From Calvatia gigantea (taxonomy: Eukaryota > Basidiomycota > Agaricomycetes > Agaricales > Lycoperdaceae), in assembly GCA_025093985.1 (NCBI GenBank), contig JACAAK010000010.1:459501-523500 (forward strand): a stretch of DNA of 64,000 bases, read 5' to 3'. The translations under genes were made by a program, and so were the position numbers. Of this stretch, positions 18,603 through 64,000 are shown piece after piece. Positions within the stretch are counted from its first letter, which is position 1. Each line of letters opens with the position of its first letter. The notes beneath the pieces are model-generated. The model worked only from the letters and a program-made list of their open reading frames with translations. It had not been told where the DNA came from and ran no database searches.

Positions 18603-19320
18603 ATACCCCCCGATTAGACTTCATGCCTCAGGAAGTTCATCAAACTCTCCGTTGACTACGGCGGCAGCGAGGGCTTTCTTGGTGGCTCCGATGAGGTACT
18701 TTCCTTCGTTGGAGCGTGCGAAGAAGACGGGCAAGTGGCTGCGGCCATCTTGACGGATAGGGACTGGGACTCCGTTGAAGGGGAACTCGGTGGTGGTTGA
18801 GTTGTCCCAGTAGCTCTTGACTATCGCTTTCCAATAATGTTGGTCCTTTTCTTGGCCTGGTAGTACACTGCGGAATCTTGCTGGTGGGAGAAAAACCGAT
18901 ACGATCTGTGGTGGGGTGATGGTCTTTATGAATCGTCAGAGTGCATTGACTTCCTCTTTCATTGAGACGGTGGTTTCTTCGTCCATGGGCGTGTCTGCTC
19001 GTTTGGTTGGTGGGGAACGGATGGTGGTGTGTAGGTCAGCGAGAGTAACTCCAATGCGTGTAACGAGTTGATCGATGTCTGGGTCTTCCATGGTCTTGTC
19101 GCGTCCTAGTAAATTCATAGCGACGTCTGCGAGTTCTAGGAAGATATCGGCGATATCAAGGTGGTTGAATACCTCTAGAGCGAGGTCAACACGGCTCTGA
19201 AGGCTGTGAACTCGACTTTGTTCGTTGGGTGTGAGGGTGGATAATTCTAATGCGCGGAAGATGGCGGGGATGTGTTGGCTTGTGGAGGATGATGCGTTGG
19301 CGAACCCAGCGTACGGTTTG
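18603..19320 (-). pseudogene. Gypsy-1 accessory ORF, copy F, N-terminus missing
   Basis: Minus-strand coding sequence homologous to 25996-26979. The 18936-19358 frame reads FANASSSTSQHIPAIFRAL, then VFNHLDIADIFLELADVAMNLL and DTPMDEETTVSMKEEVNAL. A downstream frame to about 18640 corresponds to the LPGQEKDQHYWK and VPICQDRQSH regions. The codons keep CpG, so this copy best shows the ancestral protein. Near 19320 it is joined in frame to copia gag (MSRITAPEPEARRKP), a chance fusion. Function unknown. Confidence 0.7.
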
Positions 19321-20489
19321 CGACGAGCTTCGGGCTCGGGCGCAGTAATGCGCGACACAAGCGGAGTGGCATTGCTGCCAGTGGCAGCGGAATTAGAGGC
19401 AATGGGAGGTGTTTTGGCTCAATGTGTTGCTTCTACAAGGGAACGAGTGGATGGTAGCGGCATAGCTTGTGCCTGCGACACAAAGTCCACGTCCTGAATG
19501 TAACCAGAAGAGGTGGCGGCATTGCCTTGCGCACCTCCCTCCTTTCCCTTTCCTTTTCCTTTTCCTCGGGGGTGCCATTGGCGTTTCTTCTCGCCATCGC
19601 CTTCTCCTCCAGATGGCTTTTGCTGCTGCTGCTGCTGCTACTGGGGCTGCTGCTGGAGTTTTTTAGACCCCGAAGGCTGCTGCTTCCCTTGCTATTGGCA
19701 CTGCTGCTACTGTTGCTGCCCACCTCCTTGTCGTGGAGTGAAGCACGCTCGTTGCGCGTGGGCTGTCTGGTTGGAGGCGTAAGCGGCTATAATGCCGCTT
19801 CGGGCCTTATCCCACATCAGCTCGTGGAGCGACGTGTTCGAAGTGAGGAGCGTCTGAGCTACGTGGCTCAAAGACGGGTGGAGGGAGTGGAGGAGGATCA
19901 TCATCTCGATCTCCAGGGCGATACCACTATCCATGGCATCAAGCTGCCTGAAGATCTGCTGGAGCTCACTCATCTTGAGTGAGGGGTCACCGCCGAGAGG
20001 GAGCTCAAACGTTATAGCACAAATGAACTCATTGTAGACCTGGGCTGGTCCAGGAAGGCCATATTGGCCCTGCAACTGGGACCAGAGTGCGCGAGCATCC
20101 CGGGCGGAGTGCTTTAGCATACTGTTGGGGAGAGTTGCCTCAATCAACCCAAGGGCTCGCATCCAGAGGTTGTTGGCCATTCCAACACTGTAGCGCTCCT
20201 CAGCAGTCGCAGGAATTGGAGTTCCTGGTCGTGCGGGACGTGCCGGCGAAGTGCTAGAAGCCGGGACAGCGGGGTGTTCAGGTCCATAGGCCTGCTCGTA
20301 TTGGACAGGTTCGTCCATTGCTCCAGAGAAGTCCCATCTGGTCCAGGAGCAGTCGTTTAAGGAAATGCACATAAGTGCAGACCGAAGGCGAAGCGACCAG
20401 ATGGTATAGTTACCCGTCCCAGTAAGGACGGGAAGCTGTCCGCTAGGGGTTTGAACAAAGCCCGGCGAAGCAGAAGCCGGTTTAGACAT
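19321..20489 (-). pseudogene. Cop-B copia gag, nearly intact
   Basis: The likely start is 20489 (MSKPASASPGF), although the open frame extends back to 20513. It is uninterrupted to 19707, with GQLPVLTGTGNYTIWSLRL, an Ala/Pro-rich loop, YSVGMANNLWMRALGLIEA, and UBN2-type SELQQIFRQLDAMDS. Past 19720 lie a CAG-encoded poly-Gln tract with three TAG codons, a basic GKGKGKG stretch, then ATGSNATPLVSRITAPEPE. Expected role: particle core. The 3' end is replaced at about 19320 by gypsy-1 sequence. Confidence 0.85.
19615..19725 (-). repeat. CAG trinucleotide tract coding poly-Gln in copia gag
   Basis: The plus strand shows runs of CTG/TTG (CTGCTGCTGCTGCTG), that is CAG/CAA on the coding strand. Interspersed CTA triplets are TAG stops that replaced CAG. 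Cop-A carries the equivalent decayed tract at about 5450-5590. It is a low-complexity spacer between the capsid-like domain and the basic C-terminus. Confidence 0.75.
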
Positions 20490-25995: not shown

Positions 25996-26979
25996 ATGCC
26001 TTCCTCCCAAGCCAACTGTGTTACCATCTGCTCCCTTGTTCATCCCAACCCAACCACAATCTCTTCTGTTCCCCTCCTAGAGCCAGGCAGTGCCCAAGCA
26101 CCTGCACCCCAAGGCACTCACTGCAACCTCACCACCACACTGTCCCTAGTACAAGGACTTCTTGAATCCCTACTAAAAGATGTCAACAAAGCCACCAACC
26201 ATGAGATAGAAACCATTACTGCCCAAAACAAGTGATTAGTTGTCAATTGACACATTGCCCTTGCTACCACATGCATTATCTTTGCCAACATGTATACAGG
26301 ATTCACCAACACATCCTCATCCACCAATCAGCACATTTCCGCCATCTTCCGAGCCCTAGACCAATCCACACTCACACCCAGTGAACAAGACCACATCCAC
26401 AGCCTCCATAACTGTATTGACCTCAGACTTGAAGTATTCAAACACCTCAATATTGCTGACATATTCCTAGAGCTTGCCAATATAGCCATAAATCTGCTCA
26501 AATGTGATAAGACCACTGAGGACCCAGAAATTGACACCCTCATTGACAGAATCCACAGTACCCTTTCCGAATTACACAATACAATCAACCTTACACCACT
26601 GACCCAAGCTGACACACCCATGGACAAAGAAACCACCATCTCCATGAAAGAAGAAGTCAACTCTCTCTGTCACTTCATAAAAACCATCACTCCACTACAA
26701 CTCGTATTGGTTTTTCTCCTATCCACAAGGTTCTGCACTGTATTACCAGGCCAAGAAAAGGACCAACACTACTGGAAGATGATAGTCAAGAGCTACTGGG
26801 ACAACTCTACCACAACTGATTTCCCATTCAATAGTGTTTCAGTCCCTATTTGCCAAGACAGGCAAAGCCACTTACTCATCTTCTTCACATGATTGAATGA
26901 TGGAAAATACCTCATTGGAGCCACCAAGAAAGCCCTCGCCTCTGCTGTAGTCAATGATGACTTTGATGAAGCTTCCTGA
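25996..26979 (+). pseudogene. Gypsy-1 accessory ORF (unknown function)
   Basis: ATG six bases after the pol stop, in one frame for 327 codons to TGA 26977, interrupted by three TGA codons (two near 26233-26250, one near 26890). The N-terminus is Ser/Pro-rich (MPSSQANCVTICSLVHP). The middle is helical (NQHISAIFRALDQSTLTPSE, FKHLNIADIFLELANIAINL) and the C-terminus conserved (LPGQEKDQHYWKMIV, VPICQDRQSHLL, DGKYLIGATKKAL). Homologues occupy the same place in copies F and M. No signal peptide or clear membrane anchor, so env-like is unlikely. The tight spacing suggests translation coupled to pol. I do not recognise the family. Confidence 0.65.
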
Positions 26980-29973: not shown

Positions 29974-30521
29974 TGTCATGACCTGCACACATTCGCCCGC
30001 TCTCACCCGCTTCCCCCGCTCGTAGTCATCATTACCTTAGTCCGGCTGTATTGGGTTGCTCTTCATTCTTTCTGTCAGTTGGTCCGATATCCTGTTTTCT
30101 ATATTAATCCCTATCCCCTTCAACTTCTCCACTATCACCTTATAGTTAAAACTTGATTCTGGTGTCTTGTTAGCCAGCCGCCCTCGGCGGCCGTCCATTC
30201 TTCGTTCACCATTACTTTTGTACTTCCCACTTTTCAGACTAGTATATAAACCTAGTCCCCACACTTGTAAATCCTTAGTCTGATTATCGACCATGATTAT
30301 GCCCTCTGATTCTGTTCCCCTCTGTCTCTGTTCCTCCGACCCTCTGATCCCACTCCCTCCTGAAATACGGACTTCGACAACAGCAGGAAGGTGCAACACA
30401 TACATTGAAGCCGCTGAGTCCAAATCTTGTACTCGTCCGAATTCACCCACTCCGTACGTTCTCACCTGACATCACCTGGCGGCTAAACTCGGCCGATATC
30501 CCGCGTAACCCAATCGTAACA
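29974..30521 (+). repeat. Gypsy-3 5' LTR
   Basis: 548 bp, identical in length to the 3' LTR. TATATAAA is at 30243-30250. The first visible differences from the 3' LTR are transitions. Confidence 0.9.
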
Positions 30522-31149: not shown

Positions 31150-34100
31150 CCACTCTTTCTGATCCCAACTCCTTTCAACTATCTATCTCCTCCTCGCTCA
31201 TCCGCTCCCCCTCCAATACCCATTTCAAGGCCCTCATTGATAGTGGCTCTACACACTGCTTTGTGGATATTGACTTTATCCGCTCTCATGACCTCCCGAC
31301 CTCGCCCATTCCTCCTGTTGAGCTCCGTCTTTTCAATGGTTCTTCTAGTGCCTTTATTACTGAACTTGTGAAAATCCCTGTCACCTTTGGCTGTGGTGAA
31401 TCTATGACTCTGGACTTCTTCATCACTCGACTTGACTCTTCTTGCTCTGTGGTTCTGGGATACAACTGGCTCACCCACTACAATCTGTTGATTGACTGGG
31501 CCTTGGGCAGTATTACTTTCTGACCACCACAGCTCGAAATTCCTGTCACTCCTCCCTGTGTTGTGACTGCCTCTGCTGCGTCCACACATTCCTCGGTGCC
31601 CATTTCGGCCGCACCCGCTCCCATAGATCCACAGTCCTCTCTGCCCTCTAGCTCCACACGTCCCCACATATCCCTGGTGAACGCTGTTGCATTCCTGCAC
31701 GCCATGCGCATTCCTGGTTCAGTTCAATTCAGTCTTAACCTCAACAACCCGTCGATGTCAGCTGCTTTGGCTGCCATCAATGAGGAACCCGATGATTGGT
31801 CTAACATCCCCGAAGCATATTGCGAGTTTGCTGACGTTTTCAGTAAAGCAAAGGCTGACATACTTGCCGAACATAGACCCTATGACCTCCAAATCAATCT
31901 GGAAGAAGGTGGCCAACCTCCCATTGGTACCATCTACTCTCTGTCCCAGACTGAACTGGAGGCCCTCCGTAAATTCATAGAGGAAAACCTTGCCATTGGC
32001 TTCATCTGCCCTTCCAACTCCCCTCATGGAGCTCCAGTCCTTTTTGTCAAGAAGAAGGATGGCTCCCTTCGACTCTGTGTCGACTTCCGAGGTCTCAACC
32101 GTATCATGAAGAAGGATCGCTATCCTCTTCCGCTCATATCTGACCTACTCAACTCTCCACGCAAAGCCCGCATTTACACCAAGATTGACCTCCGCCACGC
32201 TTACCATCTCATTCACGTCGCGGCTGGTGACGAATGGAAGACAGCCTTTCGGACCCGCTACGGCTCGTTCGAATGGCTTGTTATACCCTTCGGCCTCACT
32301 AACGCACCTGCTGCTTTCCAGCGGTTCATGAACGACATCTTCAAGGATCTCCTAGATGTTTGCATTACGGTCTATCTTGACAATACAGTATCCTCATCTA
32401 CTCCAACAACCTCAGCAACCACCGCAAGCAGGTTAAAGATGTATTAAAGCGGCTCCACAAACATGGCCTCTACGCCTGCGCAGATAAGTGTGAGTTCGAA
32501 TCCGATACCGTTGAATACCTTGGATATGTCCTCTCCCCCGAAGGTCTCAGAATGTCTGAGGAAAAGGTCAAGATCATCCAGGACTGGCCCGAACCGAAGA
32601 AGGTCAAGGACATACAGTCTTTCCTCGGCTTCGCCAACTTCTACCATCACTTTATCTACAACTACTCTGACATCGTCGTCCCACTGACCCGCCTCACCCG
32701 AAAGGGCATGGTGTGGAAGTTCGGCGATGACTGTTGAGAAGCTTTCAGATCATTGAAGGACGCCTTTATCTTAGCACCTGTCCTCACTCACTGGATACCC
32801 GACGCTCAGATTATTGTCGAGACCGACACATCTGACTACGCACTAGCAGCCATCCTCTCCATCATTACTGAGGATGGTGAAGTTCACCCTATGGCATTCC
32901 ACTCCCGCACCTTCAGTCTGGCCGAGCTGAATTATAATACCCACGACAAGGAACTCCTGGCTATATTTGAAGCTTTCAGGATTTGGTGGCACTACTTCGA
33001 AGGTGCCCCTCTTGCGATCGATGTTGTTACTGATCACAAGAATCTAGAATACTTCTGTACCACGAAAATCCTCACCTGCCGACAAGCCCGCCGGTCCGAG
33101 TTCCTCTCCTAGTTCAACCTCATGATTCGCTTTCGCCCCAGCCGACTAGGGACAAAACCCGATGCTCTTACTAGATGATGGGACGTCTACCCTAAAGGGG
33201 GGAATAATGACTACGCTACGGTCAATCCTCACAACTTCAGACCTGTTTTTACTCATGAACAGCTTTCAGCGTCTGTCCACGCTACATACCTATATGCCCC
33301 TTCCCTTTGCGCAGCCACAATCATTGACCTTGATCAACTCCACTCTGATATCCTCTCAGCTCTCCTGCTTGACCCATCCACAGCCACTCACATAGCTAAA
33401 CCAGAAGGACGATGGTCCATCGACTCGGCTGGTTTTCTCCACCTTGATGACAGGATCTACGTCCCTGATGCTAACAAGTTACGACTTCGAGTCTTACAGT
33501 ACAAACATGATCACATCCTCTCCAGCCACTTTGGTCAGAACAAGACTCTCAAACTCATCCACAGAGACTACACTTGGCCCGACATCCGGTTGGCTGTCAA
33601 GGACTTCTGTAAGTCATGCGTCACTTGTATGCGATCTAAACCACAGCGCCACAGGCCATATGGACTTCTCAAGCAACTCCCCATCCCTGAATGACCCTGG
33701 AACTCTATCTCTATGGACTTCATTGAGAAGCTCCCTATCTCCTCCGAGTTTGATACTATCCTCGTTATCATCGACAGACTCACCAAACAATCCCTGTTCA
33801 TTCCTACCCATGACACGATCACATCGGCCGAGTTGGCCCAACTATTCGTCATTTATGTATTCTCGAAGCACGGTGTTCCCAAACACGTCACGTCCGATCA
33901 CAGTTCTGAGTTCGTCTCACACTTCTTCCAGTCGCTTGGAAAAGCACTGGACATGAAGTTGCATTTCACTTCAGGTTACCACCTGGAAGGCGACGGACAG
34001 ACCGAATGGACCAACCAGACCCTCGAGCAATACATTCATGTCTACTGCAATTATCAGCAGGACAACTGGGCAGAATTACTTCCACTAGCTGAGTTTGCTT

Positions 34101-34792
34101 ACAACAACGCTCCTAGTGCCACGACTGGTGTTTCCCCATTCTTCGCTAACAAGGGTTATCACCTGAACATCACAGTATACCCTGAGAGAGATTTAGCTTC
34201 TAGACGGGCCCGACAATTCATTGTCGACCTCAATGAACTCCACGACGTGCTAAAGACTGAGATCAAGCTTGCTCAAGGACGTTATCAGACATCTGCTGAC
34301 ACTCGCCGACTTCCTTCGCCTGACTTCACTATCGGTCAGAAAGTCTTTGTCAAGGCCAAGTTCTTCTGCACGACTTGGCCATCCAAAAAGCTCTCTGAGA
34401 AGTATCTCGGTCCTTACGAGATTATAGCACAACCCGGTTCCATTTCATTCACTCTCAGACTCCCTGACTCACTTCGCGCTGTTCACCCAGTGTTCCATGT
34501 CTCTATGCTAGAACCTGCCACACCCAACACCTTCGACGGCTGCTCTGAGCCGCCTCCCCTGCCTGTCGCAGTTGAAGGTGAACCGGAGTACGAAATTGCT
34601 CGCGTCATTGACTCGAAAATCAACTGCCGTCGAGCTTGCAAGCTTTTGTACAAAGTTATCTGGTTAGGTTATGAAGACACTGAAGAAGAGTCTTCCTGGT
34701 TACCTGCTACTGAGCTAGTACATGTGGCTGAACTTCTTGCAGACTTTCATTCCTCTTATCCTTCTAAGCCTGGACCTTTGAACCCTCTATGA
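31150..34792 (+). pseudogene. Gypsy-3 pol: protease, RT, RNase H, integrase, chromodomain
   Basis: Protease [15 protein letters not shown] near 31230. RT frame 31563-32447 ([52 protein letters not shown]), followed by a small frameshifting insertion at about 32390. RNase H has ETDTSDYALAAILS and FHSRTFSLAELNYNTHDKEL. The integrase has a zinc region (CKSCVTC), SMDFIEKLP, VTSDHSSEF and GDGQTEWTNQTLEQ. The final frame 33713-34792 ends in a chromodomain (YEIARVIDSK, VIWLGYEDTEEESSWLPATE). A few TGA/TAG stops (for example 31521, 32735, 33110, 33176, 33692) fit C-to-T change. Only a handful of lesions from intact. Confidence 0.9.
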
Positions 34793-34909: not shown

Positions 34910-36060
34910 TCACTGGGCAGTTTCACCCGACTCAGCCGCTTCCTCCACTTCTTCCTCCTTTTCCTCTTCACTCTTGTTTCCATTGTCTTCCTCCATCTCC
35001 ATTACTACCTCCATTTCCTCCTGGGTTTCACCCGGTGTGCGGGCCTCCTCGTTGTCATCCTCGTTGTCATCATCATTGTCAGCCAGTCCCAGGGCATCCA
35101 TCACCTGCTGAACCATCAGTCCAATGCTGCACTGATACCCGCCGTTCTTGATGACTGCAGCCTCAACATTCCTCCCGAGCTCATTCGCCCGCTTCAGCCG
35201 CAGCAACTGCTCCTCTCCAACCTCAATCAGCCTATCCATCCTTACCCCCTGATTCTCCATAATGGACGCGATCCTCTCCAGGATATTGTTTTGGCGAGTA
35301 AGGAGAGCCACAAGTTGATCATTGCTGACCTAAGATACTTGAGTGGCGACAGTGATCGGCCAACGACGGGCGGATGGAAGGTAACAAGCCTTCTTCGACA
35401 GCGAACATTTGAGGCACTTGGTGACCTCGCGACTAGAACGGCCATTAGCACAATCACTGGGAAGCTAAGTGCCACTTACCTTGACGTCGACTCCCTGATT
35501 GTGCAAGGATCGCCATTGTCAAGACATCGCTCACACTTATTATGGCCACCTATCTTGACCTTCTTTCTGTCAACTGCAGGTGGCTCGTCCTCGCCTGATT
35601 CCCTCCAGTCCGGGTCTGGCTTGCCCCCAAAATCTGACTCTTCATCGACATGTCTCCTTTTCAACGATGGCGGCGCCTTCCCAACCCACTCCTTCGTGAT
35701 CCTCCATTGATGTCGCTTCTCGGCCGTTATCTTCTTATCCACTTCATTAGCAGCCTTACACTTTCCTTTGTGTCTGCTTGCCCGTGCCAACTCCTCATGT
35801 TGCTCCTCCTCCCGTGCCGCTTGTTCCTCGTGTTCCTTCCTCTCCCACTCCTCTTGCTCCTCTTGCTCCTTCTTTTCCCATGCTTCTCGTTCCACCCGTT
35901 CTTGCCTCTCTCACTCCTCGTTCTCCTCCAATTCGCGCAGCTCACGTTCGGCCTGCCGTTCCGCCTCTTCCTGCCTTTCCAGTTCGAGTCACTTGCGTTC
36001 ACGCATGGCCTCTAGCTCGGCCCGTTTCTCCGCAGCAGTTTTCTTGATAGGGCTGGACAT
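34910..36060 (-). pseudogene. Gypsy-3 antisense gene: coiled-coil protein with spliced Zn(II)2Cys6-like motif
   Basis: Opposite strand to gag-pol, between the pol stop (34792) and the 3' LTR. Start ATG 36060 (MSSPIKKTAAEKRAELEAM), then a long Glu/Arg/Lys coiled coil, a basic-acidic middle, and CERCLDNGDPC. A GT-AG intron at 35479-35433 (47 nt, GTAAGT, branch-like CTAAT, TTCTAG) then leads to CLKCSLSKKAC. Spliced, the motif is CX2CX6C-X13-CX2CX6C. A second helical region (RQNNILERIASIMENQGVRM) and an acidic tail end at 34910. About 367 residues. Stops near 35986, 35910 and 35330 are TGA or TAG, consistent with CGA/CAG decay. Possible sequence-specific DNA binding is inference. Confidence 0.75.
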
Positions 36061-36212: not shown

Positions 36213-36760
36213 TGTCATGACCCATGCACATTTGCCCACTCTCACCCGCTTCCCCCGCTCGTAGTCATCGTTACCTTAGTCCGGCTGCATTGGGTTGCTC
36301 TTCATTCTTTCTGTCAGTTGGTCCGATATCCTGTTTTCTATATTAATCCCTATCCCCTTCAACTTCTCCACTATCACCTTATAGTTAAAACTTGATTCTG
36401 GTGTCTTGTTAGCCGGCTGCCCTCGGCGGCCGTCCATTCTTCATTCACCATTACTTTTGTACTTCCCGCTTTTCAGACTAGTATATAAACCTAGTCCCCA
36501 CACTTGTAAATCCTTAGTCTGATTATCGACCATGATTATGCCCTCTGATTCTGTTCCCCTCTGTCTCTGTTCCTCCGACCCTCTGACCCCACTCCCTCCT
36601 GAAATACGGACTTCGACAACAGCAGGAAGGTGCAACACATATGTTGAAGCCGCTGAGTCCAAATCTCGTACTCATCTGAATTCACCCGCTCCATACGTTC
36701 TCACCCGATGTCACCTGGCGGCTAAACTCAGCCGATATCCCATGTAACCCGATCATAACA
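36213..36760 (+). repeat. Gypsy-3 3' LTR
   Basis: 548 bp, TGTCATGACC to CGATCATAACA, after a G-rich purine tract. Differences from the 5' LTR that I checked at the left end are all transitions. Confidence 0.9.
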
Positions 36761-39561: not shown

Positions 39562-40191
39562 TGTTAAACATGGATCATGCAGGTAAGATGACCAAAGTTT
39601 AGACACCGGAGGGTTATGTGCAAATGTGGACGAAGGTGGGTGAAGCAGGCAAACTCAGGAGAACCATGGCTTCAACATATGTGTTGTGCCCTCTTGCCAA
39701 CAAGTGGTCCTAACTTCAGAACAAGGGATGAGGGCAGAGACAGAGGTGAGGACAGAGACAGAGGCAGAGGTAGAACAGAAGTAGCATGTTGCTAAGTTGA
39801 TTTCAGACTGAGGATTACAAGTGAAGTAGCTACAGTTTATATACTCAAGGGAGAGTGGTTTTACAAAAGGAAACTACTATGACTTCATGTGCTGGCCAAG
39901 TATGGCTGCTAGATAGAAACACTAGACATGCAACTAACTAAAAGGAATAAGGTGAAACAGGAACATCATGAATGGGAAAAAGGGAATTGCAATGGAAACA
40001 GAGGTAGATATAACAACTAGAGAAATGTACAAGGAAGATAATCGGAAATTAATGTCAGATGTCAATAATAAGAATGGAGTGCAGGGAAGGCAGGGGAGAG
40101 CAGGTGAGAGTGAATGGTAAATAAAATATAAATGGGATATAGTTCAGGTATGAGTGGGTGAAGTGGGTGAGTATGCATATGGGTTGTGACA
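39562..40191 (-). repeat. Gypsy-4 3' LTR
   Basis: 630 bp, TGTTAAACATGGATC to GGGTTGTGACA; homologous to 61258-61875 with many CpG losses and small insertions. Confidence 0.88.
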
Positions 40192-40327: not shown

Positions 40328-41457
40328 ATGCCTCCTAAGACCACTGCTCAACTATAAGCTGAGCTCAAGGAGAAATGTGAATGTGCCAGGCTCCAGCATA
40401 AACAGGAGGAAGAGGACAAGTATAGGTTGATTACAGACCTTGCCACTACTGAAACCAAGGAGAGAGAGGATAGGGAGAAGCATGAAGAAGAGGAGAGGAA
40501 ATGAGAGGAGGCAAGAAAACATGATGAGCAGAAGAAGTGGCTTGAGGAGGCAGCATGTAAAAAAAGGGAGGAACAAGAGGAGGAGAATGTGGAGGAATGA
40601 TGATGTAGGAAGGGGAAGGCCTGGGAAGAACTGGTAGCAAGTCCTAGCTGATTGAGGAAACAGCTGAGGGTGGAGGATTTGGACAAAGAGAATGATGCAC
40701 TGGGGTCATTGGATGAGGAGGAAGAGGAGGAGGTTCAGTTGCAGGTATGCATTCCCATGGGTGGGGACAACTCCTGTAAGTGCTGCATTGATATGGGTAT
40801 AAGGTGTCAACCCAGACAAACCCACTCCAAGTAAGTGCAGCCTCTTCCTGTTAATCATTAAGCTGAGAAGTCCTTAGCTGAGTTACCACCAAATGTGCAA
40901 CTTGTGTCAAAGGCAAGCAAAAGTGTGAGCCGCCAGGTGGAAGTGCCAAGGTCTCGAATCCCAATGTCCTTGTATGACATCTTGACTGATTCATGACCAC
41001 ACTTGAAGAGAACACTCTATGCCTCAATGAAATCATCATTTTATTGCATCAGTAGAACATGTGGATGGCAAATGAGTCCCAATACTAAGAACATGATACC
41101 TGCAATTCAGCCACAATCTTGAGGGAGACCATCACAAATGGAGAGGAGTTCCATGCCCTTAGCCTGGTGGTAAGTCAATAGTATCCTCCATATACAGAAA
41201 GTGCTGAATGTCCAGGGCAGATTGCAGAGTGTCTGCCTGGTGTGGACATCTGGAGGCATGTGGATAAGGCAGGTGATGTCGATATAGAAGACCAAAGTGA
41301 AGGGCTGTTGTGACCAGTGTGAGAGGGGGGTAAACAGATGGATTTGGATGAGGAAGAGAAGGAAAATGGTAGTAGTGATGAGGAAGGAAGTGAAGAAAGC
41401 AAGGAGAAAAGTGGGGAAAAGAAAGATGATGTGGAAGAGGGAAGGTGTGAGGATTGA
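40328..41457 (+). pseudogene. Gypsy-4 antisense gene, decayed copy
   Basis: Same layout as 62011-63173. ATG 40328 (MPPKTTAQL then a TAA), a charged coiled coil, EEEEEVQLQVCIP, CKCCIDMGIRC, a retained GTAAGTGC...CCTTAG intron near 40833-40879, CATCVKGKQKC, then the helical region and acidic tail. All six cysteines persist although the frame has many stops. Confidence 0.7.
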
Positions 41458-46910: not shown

Positions 46911-47187
46911 GAGTCTAAAATATTATTAAGCGTAAATCACATGGGTGAGATGACTGAAGTCTAGACACCCGAGGGTTATGCACGAATACAGATGAAGGTG
47001 GGCAAAGCAGATGAACTCAGGAGGACTATAGCTTCAATGTATGTATTGCACCCTCCTGCTGACAAGTGGTCCTAACTTTAGAACAAGGGACAAAGACAGA
47101 GACAGAGGCAGAGGTAGAACAGAAGTAGTGTGTTGCTAAGTTGATTTCAGACTGAGGATTACAAGTGAAGTAGCTATGGTTTATATA
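46911..47187 (-). promoter_or_regulatory. Gypsy-4 TATA box, predicted start and self-priming site
   Basis: On the minus strand, TATATAAA (47187-47180) is followed about 30 nt later by AGTCTGAAAT (47153-47144). The primer site ATTTTAGACTC (46921-46911) starts two bases after the LTR end. Complementarity over 10 nt has one C-to-T mismatch, as expected of decay. Confidence 0.65.
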
Positions 47188-47541
47188 CTCAAGGGAGAGT
47201 AGTTCTACAAAAGGAAACTACTATGACTTCATGTGCTGGCCAGGTATGGCCACTAGATAGAAACACTGGACATGCATGCAACTAACTAAAAGGAATAAGG
47301 TGAAACAGGAATGTCATGGATGGGAAAAAGGGAATTGCAATGGAAACAGAGGTAGATATAACTAACTGGAGAAATGTACAAGGAGGATAATCAGAAATTA
47401 ACATCAGACATCAATAATAAGAATGGAGTGTGGAGGAGGCAGGGGAGAGCAGGTGAGAGTGAATGGTAAATAAAATATAAATGGGATATAGTTTGGGTAT
47501 GAGCAGATGAAGCAGGGTGAATGTACATATGGGTTGTGACA
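46924..47541 (-). repeat. Gypsy-4 5' LTR
   Basis: 618 bp, TATTAAGCGTAAATC (TG mutated to TA) to GGGTTGTGACA, followed by target copy ATCAA. Confidence 0.88.
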
Positions 47542-50102: not shown

Positions 50103-51094
50103 TCAGGAAGCTTCATCAAAGTTGCCATTGACTATGGTAGAGGCAAGGGCTTTCTTGGTGGCTCCAATAAGGTATTTTCCATCATTCGATTGTGCAAAGA
50201 AGATGGGTAAGTGACTTCTTCTGTCCTGGCAGATAGGGACTAGAACACTGTTGAATAGGAAGTCAGTTGTGGTGGAGTTGTCCCAGTAGCCCCTGACTAT
50301 CATCTTCCAGTAGTGTTGGTCCTTTTCTTGGCCTGGTAACACAGTGCAAAACCTTGTGGGTAGGAGAAAAACCAATACAAGTTGTGGTAGAGTAATGGTT
50401 TTTATGAAGTGACAGAGAGAGTTGACTTTTTCCTTCATGAAGACAGTGGTTTCTTCATCCATGGGTGTGTCAGCTTGGGTCAGTGGCATGGGATTGATTG
50501 TGTTGTGTAATTCGGAGAGGGTGCTGTGGATTCTGTCCACAAAAGTGTCAATTTCTGGGTCCTCGGTGGTCTTGTCATATCTGAGCAGATTCATGGCTAT
50601 GTTGGCAAGCTCCAGGAATATGTTGGTGATATCAAGGTGTTTGAATACTTCAAGCCTGAGGTCAATACAATTGTGGAGGCTATGGATATAGTCTTGTTCA
50701 CTGGGTAGTGAGTGTGGATTGGTCTAGAGCTCAGAAGATAGCAGGAATGTGCTAATTGGTGGATGAGGATGCATTGGTGAATTCCTATATACATGTTGGC
50801 AAAGGTAATGCATGCAGTAGCAAGGGTGATGTGTCAATTGACAACTAATTACTTGTTTTGGGCAGTGATGGTTTCTATCTCACTGTTGGTGGCTTTGTCA
50901 ATGTCTTTTAGTAGGAATTTAAGGAGTTCCTGTGCTAGGGACAGTAGTAGTGGCTGAGGTTAGTAGTAAGTGCCTTAGGAGTGCAGGTGCTTGGCCACTA
51001 CCTAGGTTCTGGGAGGGGGATGGAAGAGATTATGGTTGGATTGGGGTAGACAAGGAAGTGGATGGTAACACAGTTGGCTTGGGAGGAAGGACAT
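50103..51094 (-). pseudogene. Gypsy-1 accessory ORF, copy M
   Basis: Minus-strand homologue of 25996-26979. The clean 3' frame (50594-50103) shows DTPMDEETTVFMKEKVNSL, LPGQEKDQHYWKMIV and DGKYLIGATKKALAS. The 5' part (ATG at 51094) has a one-base insertion near the start and several stops, with SGLKYSNTLI-type remnants in another frame. Lies between pol and the 3' LTR. Confidence 0.65.
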
Positions 51095-57610: not shown

Positions 57611-58652
57611 ATGGCAGCCTTGGCAGGTAATCAGGAACACCTTGCTGCAGATGTCAATGGTGCTGCCGAATCCCTGCACAACCTGTCCCACTGGGTTAGG
57701 CAAGTGCACACTATGCTGCTTAATGTGGAATCTACCACAGTGGTGACAACTTCTCATGACAGCGGTGGCCGTCCCGGAAGGCTCCCCCCACCCTCAAACC
57801 AACCACTTTGTTGAAGTTATCAACAGAGGTCTTGTCCAGGCTCGTGTCCGATGTCAGATTGAGTCTGTCCGATCGAGCACGGCCAACTCGTGGTCCCTGC
57901 TCACCAACTTTGCTCCCACTCCAAAAAATGTTGCTATCATTGACAAGTGGGCCCACAAGGCAGTCGCTAAGGGCATTAAGCTCCAGCTCCGCATCCCTGA
58001 CTCCACGTCCTACATCAGGATCATGGACATCCCATTCATCGACAAGCTAGGCCACAAGGCCATGACTGTTGAACGCCTCCTGGGTCACCTCTCAAAGTCC
58101 CCCCATCGTGAGGACTTTGCTATGCTATCCCATACCCCACGCATTTCACGCAATTCTGCCAGCTCTGACATGTGCACAGCCTGGCTTGACCTAGCCGACT
58201 CCAAGACCGGCACTCAGATGAAACGCCTTGTGGGGCGCACTGTTCAGATCGGAACGCACTTCTGCCATGTGCAGCAGGCCTCCGCCCATACCGGGGTTCC
58301 CTGGTGTCAGCATTGCTGGTACTGGGGCCACCCCACTGCTATCTGTCGATCTTGGTTGAACAGGTGCCCTATCTGTGCTGGGCCTCACACTTCTGAGAAC
58401 CACTGCGCTGTCGCCAGCTGTTGTCATCCCAAGGATCTCAACAAGGCTACCCCTGAGGGACAACTGTGTCCCCACAAATTCAAGTGTCTTAACTGCAGCA
58501 GTGAGCACAGCACCGACTCCCACTTGTGCCAGCTTTGGCGCCACTGGTATGAGGCCGAGTGGATCAAAGAGCACTATAGAAAGGTGAGTGAACGCCATCT
58601 ATCTAGGATAGTGTCACGATCCACTGATAACAATTCAGCATCCGTGCAATGA
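57611..58652 (+). pseudogene. LINE-1 ORF1 (Gag-like, zinc knuckles)
   Basis: Probable ATG 57611 (MAALAGNQEHLAADVNGAAE) in one frame, shifting near 57760 to a 298-codon frame ending at TGA 58650-58652. The middle has QLRIPDSTSYIRIMDIPFID and the FAMLSHTPRISRNS region. The C-terminus carries three Cys/His knuckles: CQHCWYWGHPTAIC, CPICAGPHTSENHC and CLNCSSEHSTDSHLC. Such ORF1 proteins bind LINE RNA to form the ribonucleoprotein. The stop overlaps the ORF2 start (ATGA). One frameshift is the only defect seen. Confidence 0.82.
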
Positions 58653-61257
58653 ACCCCGAACATGATGAGTTGAAGCATTTCGTGAAGGGTAGATTACGTA
58701 TATTGTCTTTTAATGTAGCAAAAAACTACGCATTATTGGACACCTTGCTAGAATCTGAGAAAGATAACTTCGACATCGTGTTCGTCCAGGAACCTCCCTG
58801 GTGAGCAATCAGGTCCACCCCCTCGACACTTGATGCCGAGGGTGAGCCCGTCATCAGAGCACCTAAGCACCCTGAGTGGTTGTACATGGTGAGGCCAGCC
58901 TCCTCTGTGGAGGAACGAGATCAACCCTATGTTATGGCATATGTCTACACACAGATCAAGAGACTGAGGCCCTCACTAAGGTGGGACCTCATTGATCACC
59001 GGGATGTGATGGTTGTCACCATCTTCAATCACGGCCATGAATGCCATTTCATGAATGTCTATTCTGATGATGAGCACACTATGATCAGGCTTCTCTACAA
59101 GAAGTGCGATTCTTTACCCCAGATACATTACATGGGAGGCGATTTTAATTGCCATTCGTGTGAGTGGGACGATAGTGTTCCGCATCACCACCGATCCACA
59201 CAGCAGCTCTTGGAAGCTGCCAATGATCTCAGCCTTGGGATCTGGTTGCCAGATTCTAGGGCTTCTACGCATGTACCTCGAGATCCGACCAAATGCCAAT
59301 TGGTGATTGATCTGATCTTTATCTCTGATCTTAGGTGGCGCATCGCACATCCCCAGATCAGATTGGATCTAACAGGCCCATCGGACCATCATCCGCTGTC
59401 TGTTGTGATCCCTATCCGCCCTGAAGACATCACAAATATCAGAAGGGCATTTCCCAAGAACTCGGCAGCGACTGCAGAATTGCAGTTCCTGGATGAGATC
59501 AGAGAAGGGGTGTATGGTCTTCGGGATCATCCCCTTAATTCAGCACAGGATGTTAATGTCCTGGCATCGGCTATTGGGTCAGTGTTCTCTGCAGTGTGGC
59601 ACTGCCACACTGTGGAGGTGCACATATCTGCAAAATCTCAGCCATGGTGGGATGAGGATTGCAGTGTCACCCTGCGGGCCCACAGGGACTCTTCAGACCC
59701 TGTGGACTGGAAGGCATTTTGATGTGTTGTAGCATCTAAGAAGCACAAATTCTTCAACGAGAAAATCGAGGAAATTGCTGAGACCAACAAGCGCCCTTGG
59801 GACCTTATGGAATGGGTTAAAGTGCGCAAGTTGCCTGTGTGCAAGGCTATCTCCTACCAAGGGGAGCCTTGTCACACTATGGACTCCCTATGGGAGGCCC
59901 TTCACGGTACCTACAACTCTGCCTCTGGGTGTGAGTATGATACCCCCATTATTGACCCACTCCCTACGCTTCCACAGTGGGGGTGGGTTGACTTCTCAGA
60001 CAAGGAGCTGGTGGACGCGCTGTCTGCCTGCTCCAAAGTCTCTGCTCCGGGCCCCGACCACATTATGTGGAGGATGCTCAAACAGATCGTGCTTGGGGAT
60101 GCCCTGCCAGTCTTCGTACGTCTAGCTAGTGCCTGTATTCATTTAGGCTGCTGGCTAGAGTATTTCAAAGAATCCATGTCGGTTATTATCCCTAAGCCGG
60201 GTAAGCCTGCATACTCTACACCCAAGGCCTTCAGGCCTATAGTTCTTCTCAACACACTGGGTAAGCTGTTTGAGAAAATGATCGCGACTAGGCTCCAGTT
60301 TGACTCTGTCAAATTTGGGGTCTTTCATCCTAATCAGCTCGGAGGTGTGATCCAACGGTCCACTGAAGATGCTGGCCTAATGCTAACCCACATTGTAAGA
60401 GTGGGTTGGGCTAAGGGCCTTAGGACTAGTGTTGTGGTGTTTGACATAGTGCAGTTCTTCCCATCATTGCACCATGATATGCTGGTTACAATACTCCACA
60501 AGCAAGGATTTGCCCCTGAGTTGGTCAAGTTCTTTGCGCACTACTTGGTAGAACGGAAGACCCAGTATTGCTGGGACTCTTTCAAGTCTGAGCCATTTCC
60601 ATTTGACGTGGGGGTAGGGCAGGGTTCTGCCCTCTCCCCCATTCTATCAGCCTTATACATAGCTCCGCTAATGTGGCTTTTCAACAGGGAGGTGTCCCAT
60701 CTAGGGACGACCCTTCTGTCCTATGTCGATGATGGCACCATCATTGCCCAGTCTAAGGACTGGAACTCTAACCTTGTGACTCTTAAGGAGGCATATGGTA
60801 TTATATTCAGGCTCTTTGAGCGTTTTGCCTTGGTACTTGAACATGACAAGTCTGAGGTTTTTCACTTTTCCCGCAAGCACGGGGATGATAATCTGCCGAT
60901 TGACCTGGGCTTTGCCCCATTCACTGGTGATACACCGCTTCGACCCAAGCCCTATTGGAGGTATTTGGGTTTCTACTTCGACTGTGCCCTTACGTTTAAG
61001 AAGCATGTTTATTACTATTCTACCAAAGCTTTGTCTATGGTGAAAGCCATGAAAATGCTTGGTAACTCCACGAGGGGCTTGCGGCCTATGCAGAAGTGCC
61101 TCTTTTATTGGTTGTGTGTTGTCCCTATTGCGACATATGACTTCAAACTCTGGTTCTTCAAGGGTTCCTGCTGCAAGGCAGCCCTTATACTGGAGCCACA
61201 GAGTCCTTCGCGGGTCTCATACCTATCCAGCTTCATGTACAGAAGCTTACTGTCAGG
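58649..61257 (+). pseudogene. LINE-1 ORF2: endonuclease and reverse transcriptase, 3'-truncated
   Basis: ATG 58649 overlaps the ORF1 stop. One frame runs to the LTR at 61258 with only two TGA stops (58801, 59720). The apurinic-type endonuclease has ILSFNVAKNY, FVQEPPW, GGDFNCH and GPSDHHPLSV. RT has FRPIVLLNTLGKLFEKMIA, FDIVQFFPSLHHD, GVGQGSALSPILSALYIAP and the catalytic YVDD (about 60721). Family: Tad/I-like by order and motifs. The C-terminal end, where any RNase H would lie, is lost to the gypsy-4 insertion at 61258. Together the parts would nick target DNA and copy the RNA there. Confidence 0.87.
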
Positions 61258-61875
61258 TGTTAAGCGCAGGTCACGCAGGTGAGATGACCGGAGTCTAGAC
61301 ACCCGGAATGATGTGTGGATGCGGATGAAGATGGACGAAGCGGGCGAACTCGGGAGGACCGTGGCTTCAATGTATGTGTTGCGCCCTCCTGCCGACGGGT
61401 GGTCCTAACTTCAGAATAAGGGACGAGGGCAGAGTCAGAGGCGGAGACAGAGACAGGGACAGAGGTAAGATAGAAGTAGTGTGTCGCTAAGTAGATTTCA
61501 GACTGAGGATTACAGGCGAAGTAGCTACAATATACGCGAGGAAGTGTGGTTCTACAAAAGGAAACTACTACGACTTCAGGTGCGGGCCAGGTATGGCCGC
61601 TAGATAAAAACACCGGGAATGCAACTAGCTAAAAGGAATAAGGTGAAACAGGAACGATATGAACGGTAAAAGGGATTGCAAGGGAAACGGGAGTAGGTAT
61701 AACGACCGGAGAAATGTACAAGGAGGATAATCGGAAATTAACGTCAGACATAATAGTAAGAATGGAGAGTGGGGGAGACGGGGGAGAGTGGGTGAGAGCG
61801 AATGGTAAATAAAATATAAAGTATGGTCCAGGTAAGAGCGGGTGAAGCAGGTGAGCGCGTGTACGGGTTGTGACA
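61258..61875 (-). repeat. Gypsy-4b 3' LTR
   Basis: TGTTAAGCGCAGGTC to ACGGGTTGTGACA. Contains TTTCAGACTGAGG, the complement of the predicted mRNA start. The TATATAAA motif of the other copies is shortened here to ACAATATACGC. Confidence 0.88.
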
Positions 61876-62010
61876 GTATTCCCCCCTTAGGGCCGAGCCC
61901 TCGAGGCCATGAAGGTGTCGTGGGAAACAGAGTTGAAAAATTTGATGCGGGTATAAGATCCGCACTTTTGAAAATTTTCCTTTGCTTGCCTCTTGACCTC
62001 CTACTACCAC

Positions 62011-63173
62011 ATGCCTCCCAAGACCGCTGCCCAACTACAAGCTGAACTCGAGGAGAAACATGAACGCGCCAGACTTCAGCGCAAGCAGGAGGAAGAGGAT
62101 GAGCGCAGGTTGATTGCGGACCTCGCCGCCGCTGAAGCCAAAGAAAGAGCAGATAGGGAGAAGCGCGAAGAGGAGGAGAGGAAGAGGCGCGATGAGGAGA
62201 GGAAACGAGAGGAGGCAAAGAAACGTGACAAGCGGAAGAAGCGGCTTGAGGAGGCGGCATGTAAGAAAAGGGAGGAGCAAGAGGAGGAGAATGCGGAGGA
62301 ACGATGACGTAGGAAGGGGAAGGCCCGGGAGGAACCGGTAGCGGGTCCCAGCTGATTGAGGAAACGGCCGAGGGTGGAGGATTCGGACAAAGAGGACGAT
62401 GCGCTGGGGTCGTTGGATGAGGAGGAAGAGGAGGAGGTTCAGCTGCAGGTGCGCGTTCCCATGGGTGGGGACAACCCCTGCAAGCGCTGCATCAACATGG
62501 GTATCAGGTGTCAACCCGGACAGACCCGCTCCAAGTAAGTGCGGCCTCTTCCTGTTGAATATTAAGCTGAGAAGTCCTTAGCCGGGTTACCACCAAATGC
62601 GCGACTTGCATCAAGGGCAAGCGAAAGTGTGAGCCGCCGGGTGGAAGTGCCAAGGTCTCGAATCCCCACGTCCTCACGCGACATCTCGACCGATTCGTGA
62701 CCGCACTTGAAGAGAACACCCTATGCCTCAACGAAATCATCGTTTTATTGCATCAGCAGAACGCGTGGATGGCACACGAGTCCCGATACCGAGAACACGA
62801 TACCCGCAATTCAGCCGCGATCTTGAGGGAGACCATTGCAAATGGAGAGGAGTTCCGCGCCCTCGGCCTGGTGGTGAGTCAACGGGATCCTCAGCACACA
62901 GGAAGGACTGAACGTCCAGGACAGATTGTAGAACGGCTGCCTGGTGCGGATATCCGACGGCATGTGGATGAGGCGGGTGACATCGACATCGAGGACCGGG
63001 GTGAGGGGCCGTCGCGACCAGTGCGACAAGGGGGTGAGCAGATGGACTTGGATGAGGAAGAGAAGGGAAACGGTAGTAGTGGAGAGGAAGGAAGTGAAGA
63101 AAGTGCGGAGGAGAGCGGAGAAAAAGAAGACAGTGTGGAAGAGGGTGTGGAAGGGAGCCAGCATGAGGATTGA
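62011..63173 (+). CDS. Gypsy-4b antisense gene: coiled-coil protein with spliced Zn(II)2Cys6-like motif
   Basis: Best preserved copy. ATG 62011 (MPPKTAAQLQAELEEKHERA), then about 90 residues of Glu/Arg/Lys coiled coil, a basic patch, an acidic run (LDEEEEEEVQLQ) and CKRCINMGIRC. A 47-nt GT-AG intron 62535-62581 (GTAAGT...CCTTAG, phase 2) leads to CATCIKGKRKC. Spliced, the cysteines are CX2CX6C-X13-CX2CX6C. Next come a leucine-rich helix (LEENTLCLNEIIVLLHQQ) and an acidic Ser/Glu tail to TGA 63171. About 371 residues. Only two TGA codons (62305, 62353) interrupt exon 1. It is transcribed, if at all, away from the 3' LTR and against pol. Function is inference: a DNA-binding or silencing-related factor. 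Confidence 0.75.
62535..62581 (+). other. Predicted intron within the zinc motif
   Basis: GTAAGTGC donor and CCTTAG acceptor, 47 nt. Removal shifts the downstream frame so that the second cysteine triplet continues in frame with the first. The same length and phase occur in gypsy-3 (35479-35433). Confidence 0.7.
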
Positions 63174-63298: not shown

Positions 63299-64000
63299 TT
63301 ACAAAGAACGCAAGGGACCAGGCTTAGCAGGATAAGCTATATGGAAATCTGCCACAAGTTCAGCTACATGCTCTAATTCAGTAGCAGGCAGCCAAGAAGA
63401 CTCTTCTTCAGTATCCTCATAACCCAACCAAATGACCTTGTATAATAACTTGCAGGCACGTTGACGGTCGATCTTCGAGTCAACAATGCGGGCGATTTCG
63501 TACTCCGGCTCGCCTTCGACTTCAACGGGCGGAGGAGGTGGGTCAGAGCGGCCGTCAAATGGGTTAGGTATGGCAGGTTCAAGCATCGAAACGTGGAATA
63601 CTGGGTGAATGGCACACATTGAGTCAGGTAAGCGTAGAGTATAAGAAATGGAACTGGGTTGAGCGATAATCTCATAAGGACCCAAATACTTTTCCGAGAG
63701 TTTCTTCAACGGTCGAGTCATGCGGAAGAACTGCGCCTTAACGAAGACCTTTTGCCCAACTGTGAAGTTAGGTGCGGGTGTCCGGCGGGTATCAGCGGAT
63801 GACTGGTACCGTTCTTGAGCTTGCTTGATCTCGGATTTGAGTACTGTGTGGAGTTCATCGAGGTCGACGACGAATTGACGTGCGTGTGCGGATGCCAAGT
63901 CGCGTTCCGGGTAGACTGTGATGTTGGGATGATAGCCTTTATTAGCAAAGAATGGGGAGACACCAGTAGTGGCACTAGGAGCATTGTTATAGGCAAACTC
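63299..64000 (-). pseudogene. Gypsy-4b pol 3' end: integrase C-terminus and chromodomain
   Basis: An open frame of 199 codons (63898-63299), continuous in content with DNA to 64000: QFVVDLDELHTVLKSEIKQ, KYLGPYEIIAQPSSISYTL, HPVFHVSMLEPAIPNPFDG, then the chromodomain (YEIARIVDSKIDRQ, VIWLGYEDTEEESSWLPATE). It ends about 125 bases from the end of the convergent antisense gene. Unbroken within this frame; the rest of pol lies outside the window. Confidence 0.85.

Follow-up and report, generated by a model that had tools for sequence, protein, structure and literature searches.

We find that two families of retrotransposons in the genome of the fungus Calvatia gigantea, hereafter g3 and g4, carry an intron-containing gene that runs antisense to gag-pol. 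The data support three statements about it: that the gene is a part of the element, that it has been under purifying selection, and that its product has a six-cysteine core common to g3 and g4. By its position, this conserved accessory gene belongs to a class already known, and its function is predicted; by analogy with HBZ of HTLV-1 we propose, with middling confidence, that it encodes a nuclear regulator of its own element, built around a reversed cluster of the Zn2Cys6 type.

The antisense gene in three elements of one contig

The window analysed here is a stretch of 64,000 nucleotides (GCA_025093985.1, contig JACAAK010000010.1, positions 459,501 to 523,500) that includes the elements gypsy-3, of the g3 family, and gypsy-4 and gypsy-4b, of the g4 family. 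An initial annotation, made from the letters of the window alone, had placed in each of them, past the pol stop and ahead of the 3′ LTR, a gene in antisense orientation, and all three genes lie where it had put them (Table 1); the spacing that it had read, CX2CX6C-X13-CX2CX6C, is correct in both families after splicing. None of the window copies is intact: gypsy-4b has two stops, gypsy-3 has three and gypsy-4, a member of a diverged g4 subfamily, has many.

Table 1. Positions of the antisense gene and of associated features (window coordinates unless a locus is named)
Feature	Position	Strand	Remarks
gypsy-4b 20-bp block beside the polypurine tract	61889..61908	+	common to both families
gypsy-4b TATAAG	61952..61957	+	possible promoter box; 59 nt 5′ of the ATG
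gypsy-4b antisense gene, exon 1	62011..62534	+	524 nt; two in-frame stops
gypsy-4b intron	62535..62581	+	47 nt, phase 2, GTAAGT...TTAG; inside the cysteine motif
gypsy-4b antisense gene, exon 2 (stop included)	62582..63173	+	592 nt
gypsy-4b AATAAA	63224..63229	+	past the antisense stop, ahead of the pol stop
gypsy-4b pol end	63299..64000	-	Tf2-1-type SH3, chromodomain; extends beyond the window
gypsy-3 5′ LTR, repeat part	29974..30273	+	
gypsy-3 pol, C-terminal frame	33695..34792	+	
gypsy-3 antisense gene, exon 2	34910..35432	-	one internal stop
gypsy-3 intron	35433..35479	-	47 nt; place and phase as in gypsy-4b
gypsy-3 antisense gene, exon 1	35480..36060	-	two stops
gypsy-3 3′ LTR, repeat part	36213..36512	+	96% identical to the 5′ LTR
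gypsy-4 LTR adjoining the antisense gene	39564..40163	-	in repeat pieces
gypsy-4 antisense gene	about 40328..41457	+	strongly decayed copy (L037), diverged g4 subfamily
gypsy-4 LTR at the gag end	46926..47512	-	in repeat pieces
Stop-free antisense genes, g4	L011, L012, L016		
Stop-free antisense genes, g3	L040, L041, L043, L044, L047		
Sense-strand extra ORF of another Gypsy group	L069 139-1131; L073 113-1105	pol orientation	
Stretch similar to that sense-strand ORF	18936-19418	-	
Stretch similar to that sense-strand ORF	26251-26892	+	
Stretch similar to that sense-strand ORF	50103-50723	-	

In gypsy-4b the antisense gene (62011-63173, +) and pol (ending at 63299, -) are convergent and do not overlap. 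The pol end matches PF00385 (6e-08; 32.9 bits, with a cut-off of 25.1) and PF24626 (9e-18), and the presence there of an SH3 domain and a chromodomain identifies the elements as Ty3/Gypsy chromoviruses. The genes of gypsy-3 and gypsy-4 are enclosed by pairs of LTR repeats, and the same layout, LTRs included, was found for one more element. The gypsy-4b LTR adjoins LINE-like frames (57747-61282, +) that by eye are cysteine-rich, endonuclease-like and reverse transcriptase-like. A different Gypsy group has an extra ORF of 330 codons on the sense strand, directly after pol and without such a cysteine motif, and the window has stretches similar to it (Table 1).

Copies in the genome and linkage to pol

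The genome (45.95 Mb in 77 contigs) was scanned with exon 2 of gypsy-4b, which gave 43 matches, all of the g4 family and merging to 39 loci, and with exon 2 of a g3 copy, which gave 49 matches merging to 40 loci; by these counts the pattern of the antisense gene is far beyond chance. With the C-terminal part of the gypsy-3 pol as a query, at least 113 matching stretches were found; of those listed, 87 are no less than 70% identical and make up the g3/g4 clade, and the other 26 are 32–37% identical. Most full-length g4 pol matches are 75–86% identical to the query. Among the matches listed, an exon-2 match lies within 3 kb of 83 of the 87 clade pol matches and of none of the 26 distant ones; in the other direction, 89 of the 92 exon-2 matches have a clade pol within the same distance. 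The cysteine motif was absent, on either strand, from the roughly 2.7 kb downstream of pol at all five distant loci that were read. In one of the four clade exceptions (L060), a rearranged element, a g4 pol is followed directly by an inverted LTR and the antisense gene is missing; the clade pol match at C12:2524504 also has no exon-2 match within 3 kb.

Three exon-2 matches have no pol within 3 kb. One of these (L076) is an element fragment, and the other two have the 20-bp block of the polypurine tract at most 1.6 kb away. We considered isolated matches as possible host homologues (L076, L077, L078, C13:209155 and C34:1546383); the three that were read, L076, L077 and L078, turned out to be pieces of g3-type elements.

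Stop-free antisense genes were found in eight of the 52 copies read, three at the 30 g4 loci and five at the 22 g3 loci (Table 1), although one motif cysteine is lost in L016. In one element with a stop-free gene, pol is also open, over 1257 codons, and at the position of gag there is a frame of 546 codons (putative gag). Its LTRs differ by three mismatches and five gap columns in 640 aligned columns, and the antisense gene is therefore present in a recently inserted copy.

A conserved intron and the signals around the gene

An intron of 47 nt with GT and AG ends was found at all 22 g3 loci and at 28 of the 30 g4 loci; at the remaining two, L030 and L033, it could not be made out in the alignment. 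The intron splits the cysteine motif, and its position, phase and length are equal in g3 and g4, although the intron sequences differ outside the splice signals. Its conservation points to expression of the antisense strand. An intron in an element that replicates via RNA would be expected to survive retrotransposition in this case, because the RNA that is replicated is the sense strand, in which the intron reads CT...AC and would not be spliced.

The 5′ flank of the gene is short, with about 120–140 nt from the polypurine tract to the ATG. In g4, TATAA occurs 59–60 nt before the ATG at 15 of 30 loci and AATAAA 49–50 nt past the stop at 25 of 30, the aligned end having overrun the stop in the other five. 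The TATA-like word upstream of the g3 gene is TGTAAA at 18 of 22 loci and TATAA at three, with neither at one, and AATAAA is found near or before the pol end at all 22.

The 20-bp block by the polypurine tract occurs at 76 sites of the genome when up to three mismatches are allowed, as against one site for a reversed control, and 68 of the 76 sites have an exon-2 match at most 1.7 kb away. The block holds a palindrome, CCTCGAGG, and is nearly invariant between g3 and g4, unlike the rest of the flank. It may have a role in reverse transcription, in the antisense promoter or in both, and it is a candidate binding site of the antisense protein.

Purifying selection on the antisense protein

Decay of the copies is dominated by the loss of CpG, so that neutrality does not correspond to a dN/dS of 1. 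The neutral expectation was obtained by placing the mutation spectrum of each pair at random, with 200 simulations per pair, and the simulated means were 0.50–0.56. A check of dN/dS across copies had been proposed along with the initial annotation, and it bears out selection at one level of divergence: between the two g3 subfamilies dN/dS was 0.24–0.31 in six pairs, which are not independent of one another since a single deep branch is common to them, and all four of these pairs that were simulated fell within the lowest 2.5% of the simulated neutral values. In all six, the annotated frame had the lowest ratio of the six possible frames. Within the g3 subfamilies, the two pairs simulated gave 0.45 and 0.49, which is the neutral value. 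A contrast of fixed and singleton changes, in the manner of a McDonald–Kreitman test, went in the same direction and was not significant (p 0.07, or 0.16 without CpG sites); for this, two g3 groups of ten copies each were set by hand, with L053 left out and L066 used for singletons only. The hand-set groups replaced a first clustering that had merely split off a single outlier. The antisense protein is under purifying selection between the g3 subfamilies.

Between the families, pol has a dN of 0.06–0.09 and a dS of 1.2–1.7, and the antisense gene has a dN of about 0.8 with dS saturated, so that over the same time the antisense protein has changed about ten times as much as pol. We also considered a module swap as the reason for an antisense protein that is only 29–32% identical over the whole alignment, beside a pol that is 75–86% identical; given the dS of pol, divergence in place suffices, and a swap is a conceivable but unneeded step. 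Rapid divergence outside the core would be in keeping with a factor whose host target is itself changing, and is equally well accounted for by a relaxation of constraint on arms of low complexity.

The encoded protein and its cysteine core

The stop-free copies encode a product of 367–372 residues, in the order of a charged helix, the motif CX2CX6C-X13-CX2CX6C, a long helix and an acidic tail. When three of the five g3 and all three g4 stop-free proteins were compared by hhalign, only the 51-residue cysteine region matched (39% identity; probability 97.9%, E 3e-13). Single sequences did not reveal the relationship, the best BLASTP match (E 0.017) covering 19 residues outside the motif; it is on the hhalign match, synteny and the intron that we take the g3 and g4 proteins to be homologous.

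The N-terminal part had been described as a coiled coil, a reading that we rejected: with 66–76% charged residues and 6–9% large hydrophobic ones, it is more like a charged single alpha-helix. The structure prediction was made for exon 2 of g3 rather than for the spliced product, and has a short helix at the cysteines, a second short helix, a helix at residues 38–114 and an acidic tail of low confidence. The low overall values (mean pLDDT 64.7, pTM 0.27) mean that only the long helix is to be trusted (mean pLDDT 86–93 for residues 41–90). After the motif, heptad periodicity was not significant in a shuffle test for g3, in which 455 of 2000 shuffles reached it, and for g4 the count was 56 of 2000.

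The initial annotation had pointed out that all six cysteines survive even in the heavily decayed copy. As evidence this is weak, since only one of the six cysteine codons of the motif contains a CpG and decay acts mainly at CpG. In 19 g4 copies compared with L012, 26% of CpG codons and 5% of non-CpG codons were changed, as were 4 of 114 motif cysteine codons; we thus set aside cysteine survival as a sign of selection.

The dominance of CpG in the decay, seen over 20 g4 loci, suggests CpG methylation and deamination in the host genome.

Relation to the Zn(2)-Cys(6) domain

The cysteine spacing of Zn(2)-Cys(6) domains follows the rule CX2CX6C-X5-16-CX2CX6-8C. The antisense proteins of both families conform to it after splicing, and Zn_clus (PF00172) is their best Pfam match, with 10.2 bits for a full-length protein of 371 residues and 13.9–18.0 bits for natural pieces, in every case short of the gathering threshold of 21 bits. 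Thus, of the earlier assignment to the GAL4 type, the six-cysteine core and its spacing hold and the profile score does not follow. A search of the PDB with the antisense protein gave no useful match.

In the natural order, the best stretch in every test placed the first half-motif within positions 10–37 of the Zn_clus profile, and since this is the later part of the profile the order of the halves looks reversed. With the halves swapped and the natural linker kept, the alignment ran from end to end but the score was lower (12.6 and 15.2 bits against 15.9 and 16.8); once the linker was shortened, the swapped form scored 20.7 against 18.0 bits for g4 and 17.4 against 17.5 for g3. Host Zn_clus controls (three of the eight host loci fetched) scored 34.4–38.4 bits, and with their own halves swapped 18.4–25.0, near the natural-order scores of the antisense protein. 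It seems, then, that the half-motifs are in reversed order relative to the profile, a reading from sequence comparison that is likely rather than proven. In common with the GAL4 type, the protein has two CX2CX6C halves, basic residues in one of them and a helix after the cluster; it differs from that type in its score below the cut-off, the seemingly reversed halves, the 13-residue linker and the location of the cluster in the middle of the protein.

Many hypothetical proteins of Agaricomycetes carry such a cysteine pattern, and some of these may be unrecognised copies of the antisense gene.

What the gene may do

As a nuclear regulator, the product would be made from an antisense transcript that starts at a promoter in the 5′ flank or the LTR and is then spliced and translated. 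The six cysteines would hold a binuclear zinc cluster of the Zn2Cys6 type whose two halves have changed places, the long helix that follows it would dimerise the protein, and the dimer would act in the nucleus on the DNA or chromatin of the element itself, tuning sense transcription, silencing or integration, much as HBZ does from the antisense strand of the HTLV-1 provirus. A stronger version is more doubtful: that a fungal Gypsy lineage encodes an antisense, spliced zinc-cluster regulator with a half-swapped Zn2Cys6 fold, and that outside its 51-residue core this protein evolves about ten times as fast as pol because it is caught up in a conflict with silencing by the host.

The selection, the intron and the linkage to pol would fit equally well a protein that acts in the particle or in integration (in the pre-integration complex, nuclear import or tethering) and not in transcription, and a nuclear or pre-integration role has been proposed for plant antisense proteins in a review (PMC7264820). 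We consider such a role unlikely, because the antisense message is separate from the gag-pol RNA, so that entry into particles would need an extra step, and because the cysteine spacing resembles that of a binuclear cluster. It is also conceivable that antisense transcription itself is what is conserved, as a regulatory RNA or a source of siRNA, and that the protein is incidental: the gene is convergent on pol, so that the transcripts could overlap, control by dsRNA is raised in the same review (PMC7264820), and the g3 and g4 proteins are so weakly identical. We find this improbable, given that purifying selection between subfamilies acts on the annotated frame, that this frame is maintained across the intron and that the core is conserved, at the level of protein, between g3 and g4.

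Host genes of fungi often have introns and zinc-cluster-like motifs, which would suit the recent capture of a host gene with no function for the element. This we regard as very improbable: the gene is in both families, whose pol dS disfavours a recent event, it lies beside nearly all of the clade pol matches listed, and no exon-2 match was shown to be outside an element, with three of 92 lacking a pol within 3 kb. That the open frame is a by-product of the pol-strand coding region or of base composition is largely refuted, and we give it hardly any weight. Long mirror frames do exist on the pol strand, and their ratio is also low (0.34–0.46), because the wobble positions are shared; however, the ratio of the antisense frame is lower than that of the mirror frame in six of six pairs, every pol-strand frame has at least one stop across the eight stop-free genes, and the ATG, the splice signals and the cysteine pattern are all on the antisense strand. 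We thus retain the nuclear regulator as our preferred reading, in which an antisense cysteine-rich protein may help the element to control its own expression.

Comparison with known antisense genes

The initial annotation knew of no published description. This holds for the gene itself within the literature searched; it does not hold for the class, which has been published for plants and for the fungal Boty element (PMC7264820). By title or by the start of the abstract, no antisense zinc-cluster gene of a fungal Gypsy element was found in the open-access literature, and no relatives outside this genome were found in a protein database, viral contigs or plasmids. Additional antisense ORFs between pol and the 3′ LTR are termed aORF-3R and include gene23 of Grande in maize, RIRE2 in rice and TRP28 of Retand in Silene (PMC7264820). 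The accessible sections of the sources describe the Grande protein as nuclear and expressed from its own promoter (PMC7264820), predict that TRP28 binds DNA (PMC7264820; PMC11963269) and compare the Retand antisense proteins with HBZ (PMC11963269). The g3/g4 gene has the position of an aORF-3R, on the strand opposite to gag-pol and from the pol stop to the 3′ LTR, and is present in most copies of its family (83 of the 87 clade pol matches listed), as are the plant genes (PMC7264820). The plant proteins differ, no six-cysteine motif appearing in the descriptions in those sections (PMC7264820; PMC11963269), and the lineage of Retand is not a chromovirus one. Neither "zinc" nor "intron" occurs in PMC11963269. 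Within the literature searched, a protein of this kind had not been reported for the class.

LTR-retrotransposon antisense genes are a known class, to which the fungal case adds a core predicted to be metal cluster-like. Its intron indicates which strand would be expressed and illustrates how a gene with an intron can be carried by an element that replicates via RNA, and the presence of two diverged families in one genome allows them to be compared. HBZ is a basic leucine zipper. It resembles the g3/g4 gene, by analogy, in being encoded on the antisense strand, and is unlike it in that the presumed DNA-binding part of the g3/g4 protein is a cysteine cluster. The HBZ gene is driven by a promoter within the 3′ LTR, and its product is nuclear (PMC7264820; PMC11963269). 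Closer to our case by host, the Boty-like retrotransposons of Botrytis cinerea carry an antisense gene, brtn (Zhao et al., 2011, as cited in PMC7264820, PMC8365987 and PMC4227169); like g3 and g4, and as compared by description rather than by sequence, Boty is a fungal chromodomain Gypsy element with an extra gene on the antisense strand. The fungal case described here makes HBZ-like self-regulation by retrotransposons a testable question.
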